From Terriglobales bacterium (lineage in GTDB: Bacteria; Acidobacteriota; Terriglobia; Terriglobales; Acidobacteriaceae): a DNA stretch of 35,203 bases. The notes beneath the pieces were generated by a model. It was not told where the DNA came from. It saw nothing but the letters and a program-made list of their open reading frames with translations, and made no database searches. Every line of letters begins with the position of its first letter. Position 1 is the first letter of the stretch. Location: contig DASSIZ010000010.1 of NCBI GenBank assembly GCA_035691485.1, positions 1 to 35,203 of the forward strand. The letters run 5' to 3'. Of the stretch, positions 9,527 to 13,119 are shown piece by piece. The position numbers and the translations under genes are program-made.

Positions 9527-10531
9527 ATGCCAGCGACTTCGAAGTACATCTGGATGAGCGGCAAGCTCGTCCGCTATGAAGATGCCACGGTTCACTTCAT
9601 GACGCCTGCCCTGCACTACGGCATCGGCGTCTTCGAGGGAATCCGCTGCTACTCGACAGCCTCCGGTCCAGCCATCTTTCGCCTGCAGGACCACATGCGG
9701 CGACTGCTGGACTCGGCGCGCGTGCTCGGCTTCCGCGACCTGCCTTTTACCTTCGAGCAATTATGCGAGGCGGCAAGAGAGGTGGTCGCGGCCAACGGCT
9801 TCCATGAATGCTACATCCGGCCGCTCATCTACCTGGCGGAGGGTGGCTGGAACCTCACGCTCGATACCGGCGTTCCCCATGCCGCCATCGCGGTCTGGAA
9901 ATGGGAGACCTACTTCGGAGAAGAGGCGCTGGAGCGCGGGGTGCGGGCCAACGTCTCTTCCTTCACTCGTCACCATTCCAACGTCATGATGACGAAGGCG
10001 AAGATTTCGGGTAACTACGCCAACTCCGTGCTCGCCCGCACCGAGTCGCTGCGCCTCGGCTTTGAAGAGGCCATCATGCTCGATCCGCAGGGATACGTGG
10101 CGGAATGTACCGGAGAAAACATTTTCCTGGTGCGCCGCGGCGCCTTGCACACACCGCATGCGGCCGCCATCCTGGAAGGCATCACCCGCGACAGCCTCAT
10201 CGTGCTTGCGCGCGCTCTCGGGCTCAGAATCGTCGAGGAGCCGGTCTCACGCGACCAGCTCTACATTGCCGACGAGGTCTTCGTCTGCGGCACCGCGGCC
10301 GAGGTCATCGCGCTGCGCGAAATTGACGGCCGCACCATCGGCTCCGGTAAAGCCGGACCGGTCACGCGCGTGCTCCAGCGCGAATACGCCGACGCCATCC
10401 ACGGCCGGCATTCGCTTTCAAAACTTTGGCTGGATCCGGTGCCGGTGGACCGCTCGCATGCGCGCGAAGCCCCTCTGTTCAACCGTCCCGCTGGTGAAAA
10501 CAGGCCGGAGTTGCAGGCCGACGGCGATTAG
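9527..10531 (+). CDS. ilvE: branched-chain amino acid aminotransferase
   Basis: 334 residues, a PLP fold-type IV aminotransferase. It catalyses the last step of leucine, isoleucine and valine synthesis (and the first of their breakdown) by transamination with glutamate. Family features: [18 protein letters not shown] near residues 25-42, [11 protein letters not shown] with the probable PLP lysine at K159, EECTGEN-equivalent AECTGENIF, and the C-terminal [11 protein letters not shown] motif. Length is as usual (300-340). The ATG at 9527 gives the standard [11 protein letters not shown] start. It overlaps the convergent msrB gene by 4 bp at the 3' end. The terminator directly upstream suggests regulation by attenuation. 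Confidence 0.95.
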
Positions 10532-10968
10532 CCTGCCTTCTTCTCTTCCGACGATGCGGGCTTCTCTCCGGAGGAGGAAGGCACCAGCTTCAGCGCCGCC
10601 GAGTTGATGCAGTGGCGCACGCCGGTGGGCCTTGGCCCATCGGGGAAGACGTGGCCGAGGTGAGCGTCGCAGCGGGCGCAGCGCACTTCGGTCCGTGTCA
10701 TGCCGAAGCTGCGGTCAGTGTTGGTGGCGACGCTCTCCTCTTTCGCGGGCGCGTAGAAACTCGGCCAGCCTGTTCCTGAGTCGAACTTGGTTTCCGAGCT
10801 GTAGAGCGGCTCACCGCAACAGACGCAGGTGTACATTCCCTTGTCCTTGCTGTTCCAATACTCGCCGGTAAACGCCCGCTCGGTTCCGTGTTCGCGCGTC
10901 ACGTGATACTGCTCCGGCGTAAGCTGCTTCCGCCATTCCGCTTCAGCTTTTTCGATTCTGTCTGCCAT
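10528..10968 (-). CDS. msrB: peptide-methionine (R)-S-oxide reductase MsrB
   Basis: 146 residues. Reduces methionine-R-sulfoxide in proteins in the cytoplasm. Visible features: N-terminal [20 protein letters not shown], the zinc-binding CxxC pairs CVCC and CARC, the substrate-loop [20 protein letters not shown], and the catalytic cysteine in [11 protein letters not shown]. It uses cysteine at the catalytic site, so unlike its neighbour it is not a selenoprotein. The ATG at 10968 gives the normal MsrB N-terminus ([12 protein letters not shown]); the upstream ATG at 11007 adds 13 residues and neither has a strong ribosome binding site. A Ser/Glu/Lys-rich tail ends the protein. It is convergent with ilvE and divergent from the OsmC gene. 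Confidence 0.95.
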
Positions 10969-11070
10969 GACACTGTTATGGATGCGCCGGGCGGGCAATT
11001 GGCTCATCGGATATTCGTCCGACGGGCGTGCAGGTCTGCACGCAAGCCCCCCTGGGGCGGGCCGCGCCGG

Positions 11071-11094
11071 CTCGGCGGAATGAATTGCGCCGCT
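11071..11094. repeat. dispersed palindrome, copy 2
   Basis: CGGCGGAA / TTGCGCCG with loop TGAA, one mismatch in eight, followed by CTGCACC. Same organisation and flanks as 9164-9192 (GGCGGAA-4nt-TT-CGCCGCTxCACC). Confidence 0.5.
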
Positions 11095-11167
11095 GCACCT
11101 GACTGCAAATCGGTTGAATCCAGCCGCCGCCCGACGCCTCCAATAAACGGACGAGTGGAGGTCTGCA

Positions 11168-11659
11168 ATGGGGGATGTCGTCTACGTATCCAACGTGAAG
11201 ATCACGCGCAAGTCAGGACCGCTGCGCGTGGCTGAACTTCCCGGCGAAGCCCAGCCGGTGAGCTTCAGCGTGCATGGCGCCATCGCTAAACATTACGGCA
11301 TCGACACCGCGCGCCTGAAGGAATCGCACTCCGCCACCATCGACTACGTCATCGCCGCGCTCGGCGGTTGAATGCTCGGCACCTTTGCGGGCGCGCTGGA
11401 TGCGCGTCAAATCGATGCCAAGAACGACCGCCTCACCGCCGAGGTCAGGGGCGAAATCGAATCCGAAGACGGCGTGCTCGTCATCCGGCGCGTGCACGTT
11501 CGCTTTCAACTCAAGGCCGCGGGAAACGTGCGCGACACGGTGGAGCGTGTGCACTCCGTCTATAAGGACAAATGCCCGGTCTATCGCTCTCTGCGGCCGG
11601 CCTTCGAAATCACGTCGGCGTACGAGCTTGTGGCCGACGGAGGCGTTGGGACTTCCTGA
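11168..11659 (+). CDS. OsmC-family peroxidase-like selenoprotein (in-frame TGA = Sec68)
   Basis: One 163-residue gene interrupted only by an in-frame TGA at 11369-11371. The first part ([20 protein letters not shown] to [12 protein letters not shown]) and the second ([13 protein letters not shown] to [15 protein letters not shown]) are the two halves of a single OsmC-family protein, in the same frame with no base lost. OsmC proteins detoxify organic hydroperoxides with two cysteines. The family's first one sits in GG-C-LxGTFxGAL, and here TGA takes that exact place. The second, in KCPVYRS, is C136. SECIS-like hairpin: 7-bp stem 11390-11396/11402-11408 with loop TGGAT, 25 nt after the TGA. GGAGG lies 6 nt before the ATG at 11168. 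Alternative: a pseudogene with a Cys-to-stop change, but no other decay is visible. Confidence 0.85.
11372..11412 (+). promoter_or_regulatory. candidate bacterial SECIS element of the OsmC-family gene
   Basis: Hairpin GGCGCGC / GCGCGTC (one G-U pair) with a 5-nt loop TGGAT at 11397-11401, beginning 25 nt after the TGA. Known bacterial SECIS elements lie directly downstream of the UGA with a small apical loop at roughly 16-37 nt and a G among the first loop bases; all three hold here. SelB binding is not shown. Confidence 0.65.
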
Positions 11660-11661
11660 TT

Positions 11662-13119
11662 TCAAGGGCGCTCCGGCTCAGCATGCGGTTCGTCGAACGG
11701 CCATTCCCGGCGCCGTAGCGAACGCACCAGGTACACCACGGTTCCCGCGATCAGCAGGATCACTGCGTAGCGCACTTCTTTCAGGAAATTTTTTCTTTCC
11801 ACCAGGACGAATACGAAACCCGCGGTGGCCAGCAGCGCCGGCAAAGGGTAGAGCCACATTCGAAACGGCCGCGGCAGTTCCGGGCGTTTCACCCGCAGCA
11901 CAATGACTCCCACCGTCTGAAATAAAAACTGAATCATGATGCGAATTACAACCAGGGCGGTGATGATGTCCGCCAGCCGCAGGAAACATGCCGCGATCGC
12001 GACCGCGCCCAACGCGAGCAGCGAGACATACGGGAACCTTCCTTTGGCGTGCACGCGCGCGAACGCCCGGAAGTAATTGCCGTCAACTGCCGCCGCGTAC
12101 GGCACGCGGGAATATCCGAGCAGGAGCGAGAACACTGATGCGAATGCCGTCCACATGATCAGGGCGGTCACTGCACGCGCCGCCCATGGCCCATAAACTC
12201 GCGCCATGAAGGTGGATGCCACGTAGAAATGCGTACTCGATCGCGCCGCGGCATCCAACTCCCGCCACGGCAGCACGCCCAGCATGCTGATGTTCATCAC
12301 CACGTACATGCAGGCGACCAGAACGATCGAGAGCAGCAGGGCACGCGGGATGGTGCGCCCCGGATCCTTCACCTCGCCACCGAGAAAGCAAATGTTGTAA
12401 TAACCCCAATAGTCGTACGTCGCCACCAGCATCGCGGCGCCGAGGCCGAGAAAGAAATCGTGGTTCAATCGGAAGGCGCCGGGTGGAAAGCTGAATGCTT
12501 GCGCCGCGTTGAAGTGGGTGAGTCCGGCAAAAATAATCCAAAGCACCGTGCCAATCACGCCTACCCACAGAAAGCGCGAGATCCAGCCGACCGCCGTAAT
12601 TCGCCGGTACAGCAAGATCACGGCGGCAATGACCGCGCCGATCGCGACAAACGTTCCCGCGTTCACTACCACTTGCGCTTCCAGCGGCCCGAGCACCGGC
12701 AGGACGATCCGGAAGTGCCGGCCGGCAAGGGTGCGCTCCAGCGCCGGCCAATAATAGCTTCCGTACTGTGCCAGACCGATGCAGCCGGACGCGATCGACA
12801 ACGGCGCGCTGAACGACAGCTGCCAGATGAACAGGAAAGAGAGCATACGGCCCAGCCGCTTGGGCCCGTAGATTTCTTTCAGATAACGATAGGACCCGCC
12901 CGACCCGGGCAGCGCCGCGCCCAGTTCCGCCCATACCAGCCCGTCGCAGATGGCGAAGAACGCGCCCAGGATCCAGCCCAGCATGGCCTGCGGCCCGCCC
13001 ATGGCGCTGACGATCAGCGGCATGGTGATGAACGGCCCCACGCCGATCATGTCGATCATGTTCAGCGCGGTCGCGTTCGCCAGCCCGACGCCGCGGATCA
13101 GCTCGCGATCATTTTCCAT
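11662..13119 (-). CDS. APC-superfamily amino acid permease
   Basis: 485 residues with about 12 hydrophobic helices. N-terminal MENDRELIRGVGLANATALN, then GVGPFITMPLIVSAMGG and ELGAALPGSGGSYRYLKEIY are the helix 1-3 signatures of the APC family (proton-coupled amino acid or polyamine uptake; unwound helix 1 substrate site). The substrate cannot be read from sequence. The ATG at 13119 has GGAG 5 nt upstream and fits the family start; a start at 13134 has none. The end of helix 12 is followed by RSLRRREWPFDEPHAEPERP, a cytoplasmic tail. It follows the PIG-L gene on the same strand after 40 bp and may be cotranscribed with it, and converges on the OsmC gene. Confidence 0.92.
   Translation of the reverse strand: MENDRELIRGVGLANATALNMIDMIGVGPFITMPLIVSAMGGPQAMLGWILGAFFAICDGLVWAELGAALPGSGGSYRYLKEIYGPKRLGRMLSFLFIWQLSFSAPLSIASGCIGLAQYGSYYWPALERTLAGRHFRIVLPVLGPLEAQVVVNAGTFVAIGAVIAAVILLYRRITAVGWISRFLWVGVIGTVLWIIFAGLTHFNAAQAFSFPPGAFRLNHDFFLGLGAAMLVATYDYWGYYNICFLGGEVKDPGRTIPRALLLSIVLVACMYVVMNISMLGVLPWRELDAAARSSTHFYVASTFMARVYGPWAARAVTALIMWTAFASVFSLLLGYSRVPYAAAVDGNYFRAFARVHAKGRFPYVSLLALGAVAIAACFLRLADIITALVVIRIMIQFLFQTVGVIVLRVKRPELPRPFRMWLYPLPALLATAGFVFVLVERKNFLKEVRYAVILLIAGTVVYLVRSLRRREWPFDEPHAEPERP

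Follow-up and report, generated by a model that had tools for sequence, protein, structure and literature searches.

The window analysed here is an entire contig (C10, 35203 bases) from a genome of 3.84 Mb (completeness 98.54, contamination 2.6). One of its genes, on the forward strand, very probably encodes a selenoprotein with the OsmC/Ohr fold, in which a UGA codon is read as selenocysteine (Sec) at residue 68 by means of a hairpin just downstream. From sequence comparison, we give this reading a probability of about 0.93. The protein belongs, by the same comparison, to an OsmC subfamily with the motif GUxxGT that is nearly all Sec, is found in several phyla, and is absent from the catalogues that were checked.

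The frame of 163 codons has a single interruption, the in-frame TGA (Table 1). The original prediction of two in-phase frames split by one TGA is thus confirmed, and reading through the TGA yields a protein of 163 residues. The Pfam OsmC model PF02566 matches this read-through protein with 50.2 bits (gathering threshold 27.5) over residues 59 to 149, a region that spans the TGA. In an open reading frame list made with table 11 (at least 80 residues), the second half appears alone, as a frame of 95 residues starting at the ATG at 11372. The strong ribosome site that had also been predicted corresponds to the GGAGG listed in the table. Shine-Dalgarno-like sites precede many relatives of the gene in the class, and the clade designated f13 is without one. 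A promoter and terminator scan of positions 10950-11800 found none, and an Rfam scan of the window at the gathering threshold gave no match.

Table 1. Features of the predicted selenoprotein gene and its surroundings in the window
Feature	Position	Strand	Basis
Predicted OsmC-fold selenoprotein gene, 163 aa, Sec at residue 68	11168-11659	+	Frame, PF02566 match, relatives
ATG start codon	11168-11170	+	Sequence
Terminal TGA stop	11657-11659	+	Sequence
In-frame TGA (UGA), codon 68, at the peroxidatic Cys position of OsmC, predicted to be read as Sec	11369-11371	+	TGA/TGC in relatives; aligned with the Cys of 1ukk and 1ml8
Shine-Dalgarno GGAGG, 6 nt 5' of the ATG	11157-11161	+	Sequence
Codon of C136, predicted resolving cysteine, in KCPVYRS	11573-11575	+	Cys in 86/87; aligned with the GCPVSR Cys of 1ukk
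Predicted bacterial SECIS hairpin	11390-11408	+	Six-pair count, codon constraint
Hairpin arms GGCGCGC and GCGCGTC; loop TGGAT (UGGAU)	11390-11396 and 11402-11408; 11397-11401	+	
Methionine sulfoxide reductase B (MsrB), SelR domain PF01641, 185 bits; divergent, adjacent to the Sec-OsmC gene	10528-11007	-	

We searched 399 genomes of one class for relatives, and 100 of them had a match at an E-value of 0.001 or better. From 115 places listed, 90 were extracted and 87 span the Sec site; 25 weaker places lie outside the count, and L108, L109 and L110, gene fragments within longer contigs, were excluded because they lack the codon-68 site. The codon at the site is TGA in 80 of the 87 relatives and TGC in the other seven, with no other codon present, and the TGA form was found in 74 of the 399 genomes. 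Residues G67, G71, T72, L77 and R80 are invariant in all 87 relatives, and H36, T57, D59, R127 and C136 are each kept in 86, the remaining one being a gap.

A second scan covered named genomes, one genome per species, using only the part of the protein after Sec as the query so that TGY at the site was not presupposed. It returned at least 594 pattern matches and at least 408 relatives, of which the best 80 were kept; these overlap the class sample and are biased toward the window's side of the family. TGA occupies the site in all 80 of these best 80 of 408 relatives. Over the class relatives and these loci together, protein similarity is maintained on both sides of the TGA down to 31.5% identity. 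Among the same best 80 of 408, 51 belong to Acidobacteriota, 15 to Gemmatimonadota, four to Myxococcota, three to Thermodesulfobacteriota, two each to Chloroflexota and Calditrichota, and one to Actinomycetota, with two unplaced. As 79 of the 80 loci are labelled as metagenome-assembled genomes, outliers such as the lone Actinomycetota bin may be mis-binned. Viral contigs gave 38 pattern matches, with no relative among them. The relatives therefore agree with the prediction of Sec at this site: TGA falls at exactly codon 68, and TGC is the sole alternative.

An AlphaFold2 model was computed from 31 family members with Cys substituted for Sec, and has a mean pLDDT of 93.3. The nearest solved structure is 2onf (target TM 0.84), followed by 1ukk, 4mh4, 1usp and 1nye; these are OsmC, OsmC-like and Ohr proteins. 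A profile search sets the two cysteines of the Thermus OsmC 1ukk opposite Sec68 and C136, and the TGA also aligns with the Cys of 1ml8. These alignments bear out the earlier claims that the TGA replaces the catalytic Cys of the OsmC family and that the resolving cysteine in KCPVYRS is retained; the residues originally described on either side of the TGA, AALGG and MLGTFAGAL, are likewise present. The domain model, the two redox positions and the predicted fold all place the protein in the OsmC/Ohr superfamily PF02566.

The protein is more distant from the named models within this superfamily. With E. coli OsmC and its model TIGR03562 it shares the fold and, by the alignment with 1ukk, the two redox positions, but it carries Sec in place of Cys and stays below the model's cut-off (20.9 versus 85.8 bits). 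Six of the 31 members match the Ohr model TIGR03561, with a best E-value of 0.0034. NCBIfam NF041052 (OsmC-related (seleno)protein, OsmC_like_Se) describes proteins of the same superfamily, but the window protein reaches 19.1 bits against its cut-off of 95, and the best E-value among the 31 members is 1.1e-7. Across the phylum, NF041052 exceeds its cut-off in one of 297 genomes, by the hit L191. Among seven hits below the cut-off for which a motif was obtained, it reads GC[LM]TTS (CxxT) in four and is different in three.

The catalytic Glu of Ohr proteins sits ten residues before the Cys. At the corresponding place before Sec, the 31 aligned members carry Ile, Leu or Val, and the Ohr Glu, named as Glu51 in the available part of PMC5962072, is absent. 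Asp59 stands instead at minus nine from Sec in 86 of the 87 class relatives. With no acidic residue at minus ten and Asp59 at minus nine, the substrate preference may differ from that of Ohr.

SelB and Sec-tRNA would read the UGA as Sec owing to the hairpin, and this insertion would give the full-length protein of 163 residues. Sec68 would lie in the long central helix, at the place of the peroxidatic Cys of OsmC/Ohr, with C136 at the place of the resolving Cys. From the OsmC/Ohr-like fold and the alignment of Sec68 and C136 with the 1ukk cysteines, we infer a two-residue selenol/thiol redox cycle. In such a cycle, a hydroperoxide would be attacked at its O-O bond by Sec68, giving a selenenic acid that would condense with C136 to a selenenylsulfide, which a cellular dithiol would then reduce. 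Judged by fold, hydroperoxide reduction along these lines is the most likely mechanism, and we hold to it with modest confidence. The original suggestion that Sec would make the protein a more reactive peroxidase may also apply.

The selenoprotein may instead act on another substrate, such as a disulfide, a persulfide or reactive sulfur or selenium species. We regard this as a real possibility, though the less probable one. It would fit the subfamily-specific residues H36, T57, D59, G71, T72, R80 and R127 (each in 86 or 87 of the 87 relatives), the lack of an acidic residue ten before Sec, and the low similarity to TIGR03562 and TIGR03561, but both redox positions are retained, the nearest folds are those of OsmC and Ohr proteins, and the genes flanking part of the family also argue against it. 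Neighbours were compared by tblastn at 167 loci (duplicates included), with flanks of 1.5-3 kb, some of them ending at contig ends. A gene with AhpC/TSA and DsbD-N domains, as scanned on the L172 copy only, has a relative in the flank of 15 of the 167 loci, and in 14 of these 15 it has the same orientation as the selenoprotein gene and precedes it by no more than about 600 bases. The loci concerned are L034, L035, L039, L042, L046, L099, L114, L138, L153 and L172, together with duplicates.

The surroundings of the gene are not conserved as a whole: the largest cluster of flanking genes, the one whose relatives tblastn places at these 15 of 167 loci, occurred in only nine of 120 loci. The divergent MsrB gene of the window suits an oxidative-stress setting. 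Its relatives occur in two of the 167 loci, the window's own and L113, where the gene is downstream; relatives of the permease neighbour occur in three, again including the window's own. A broader proposal is that GUxxGT proteins form an essentially Sec-obligate subfamily of Acidobacteriota, Gemmatimonadota and several other phyla, with Cys exceptional and a chemistry of its own unlike that of the Ohr/OsmC peroxidases. We offer it tentatively, at somewhat less than even odds.

A 7-bp hairpin with the loop TGGAT had been predicted after the TGA. It is present, and is backed by the comparison of relatives and not by its fold alone: folded singly, the window hairpin is no better than shuffled sequences (z -0.77), 44 of 200 of which fold as well. 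Bacterial SECIS elements are hairpins about 16-37 nt past the UGA with a G in the apical loop. The first loop G of the window hairpin is at 11398, 27 bases past the last base of the TGA, and the comparison across relatives agrees with this rule.

Codon and pairing statistics were obtained from 114 non-redundant Sec genes with less than 90% identity to each other, and codon choice was measured against usage in the rest of the same gene. The six core pairs are complete in 98 of the 114 genes and incomplete in 16, while 500 synonymous shuffles within the gene gave all six pairs in a mean of 6.6 and a maximum of 16 genes. The loop begins with TGG in every one of the 114. Among seven Cys genes, none has all six pairs, five have at least five, and five have TGG. 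Whether the stem can pair depends on the free bases in codons 75, 76, 77, 79 and 80, and the five strongest departures from codon usage are at codons 77, 76, 79, 74 (G74) and 80 (R80), with G67 sixth. L77 is encoded by CTG, which supplies the first loop G, in 113 of 114 genes; A76 by GCG in 105 of 112; and A79 by GCG in 99 of 107. Codons 67 and 74 are outside the stem as drawn. Judged by these codon choices, the hairpin is under selection at synonymous positions, a constraint visible only across relatives.

Two further observations concern the region around the hairpin. The Gly codon 67 (11366-11368), directly 5' of the UGA, is GGT or GGC in 108 of the 114 Sec genes, a bias that perhaps reflects UGA context. 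In the distant f13 clade (L078, L083-L088, L094, L101 and L103), GCC CTG GCA replaces GCG CTG GAA. The window-type stem is broken in these genes (e.g. L078, L083 and L088), and single predictions show another hairpin, with the loop GGC, a few bases upstream toward the UGA. The SECIS may thus have slid within the gene in this clade, as far as these predicted structures indicate.

The prediction had been made to depend on selA, selB, selC and selD being present in the source genome, and selA, selB, selD and tRNA-Sec were all found there. The selA gene matches with 547.8 bits, selB with 373.6 bits over profile positions 1-579 of 581, and selD with 361.1 bits; the selD gene itself holds one in-frame TGA. 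A single tRNA-Sec scores 69 bits, above the Rfam threshold, and has the anticodon tca according to ARAGORN. Two formate dehydrogenase alpha genes of the same genome also contain one in-frame TGA each. With selA, selB, selD and tRNA-Sec present, this cell is expected to decode UGA as Sec whatever the nature of the OsmC gene.

Beyond the source genome, selB was searched in 12 genomes, whereas selD and tRNA-Sec were searched in the source genome only. In the class sample, selA (E-values up to 1e-60) is present in 69 of the 74 genomes with the TGA form versus 221 of the other 325 (Fisher p 2.3e-6, kinship ignored). In each of the remaining five TGA genomes selB exceeds its cut-off, so that selA or selB occurs in all 74. 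The six genomes with the Cys form only have no selA and no selB over the cut-off (242.25). In two of them, G102 and G126, a selB match of about 196 bits lies in a 400-residue frame, below that cut-off, and is probably another elongation factor. Genome G098, which has both forms, has selA and selB. Within this sample, the Cys form is thus confined to genomes without selA and selB and to one that also has a Sec copy. A single genus code covers five of the six Cys-only genomes, and the contrast between Sec and Cys therefore represents two lineages at most; three of the six are less than 90% complete. Two analyses bearing on the direction of the Sec/Cys exchange disagree. In a quick tree, the six Cys rows form one clade nested inside Sec. 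In an AU test, a tree uniting all Sec rows was 12.86 log units better than the quick tree, with a p-AU of 0.716.

Readthrough of the UGA by a near-cognate tRNA for Trp, Cys or Arg, with the codon acting as a leaky or programmed stop, would be compatible with the sequence of a single gene. Across the family it becomes very unlikely, since Cys is the only other residue at the site, the TGA form accompanies selA/selB while the six Cys-only genomes are without both over the cut-off, and all six hairpin pairs are found in 98 of 114 TGA genes versus none of seven Cys genes. A reassigned code with UGA as Trp was considered and rejected, since the other residue found at the site is Cys and genomes with the TGA form carry selA/selB.

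A pseudogene or a sequencing error, that is a nonsense mutation or a misread TGT or TGC, is more improbable still: it could draw on the table 11 list, with its second half only, and on the gene remnants L108-L110 in some genomes, but the same TGA in 80 of 87 class relatives and all of the best 80 of 408 named loci comes from many separate assemblies, which read error does not explain, and both the similarity on its two sides and the constrained hairpin codons speak against it as well. Besides the three fragments, two places contain several stops (G104:C16:46654-47117 and G130:C35:14724-15090). Together, the fragments and these places suggest gene loss in some lineages.

OsmC-like selenoproteins have been known since 2005, when three Sargasso Sea sequences with the motif UxxT were described (PMC1088965, as far as its available text goes). 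The corresponding part of the GOS survey (PMC2398784) gives an OsmC-like family with UxxT, with 5, 3 and 161 in its table row. A 2022 review (PMC9312934) and a 2026 inventory of 119 families or subfamilies (PMC13188914) contain, in the portions available, one OsmC entry each, with UxxT. The metagenomic precedent invoked in the original prediction is therefore real, but these sources point to the UxxT family, a different subfamily from GUxxGT. Both have the OsmC domain with Sec for Cys, while the protein described here has G and not T three residues after Sec, a comparison made between reported motifs without sequences. Its motif is UxxG, and G71 and T72 are found in 87 of 87 relatives. The inventory, in its available portion, assigns proteins that share a domain to separate subfamilies when their Sec motifs differ (PMC13188914), and by this rule GUxxGT would be an unlisted subfamily. 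Among the open-access papers found on OsmC together with selenoproteins or selenocysteine, no title deals with the GUxxGT subfamily, and an earlier notice may exist elsewhere. The main text of PMC5029168 mentions neither OsmC nor Acidobacteria.

According to the available part of the deep-Sep paper (PMC12013277), almost all selenoproteins have numerous Cys relatives, and the pairing of TGA with Cys is one main search route. The same part reports three known and no new selenoproteins for one Acidobacteriota genome (PMC12013277). Because Sec prevails so strongly where the subfamily was sampled (80 of 87 relatives in the class and all of the best 80 of 408 named loci), pipelines based on Cys relatives may miss it, and ordinary gene calling is expected to report GUxxGT genes as fragments. 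With the TGA form in 74 of 399 genomes of one class, these genes would be a common addition to the selenoproteome of mostly uncultured bacteria. Since both Sec and Cys forms exist in nature, the contribution of selenium to OsmC chemistry could be tested on them. In G098, the Sec copy and the Cys copy (L033, L092) come from two distant branches of the family.
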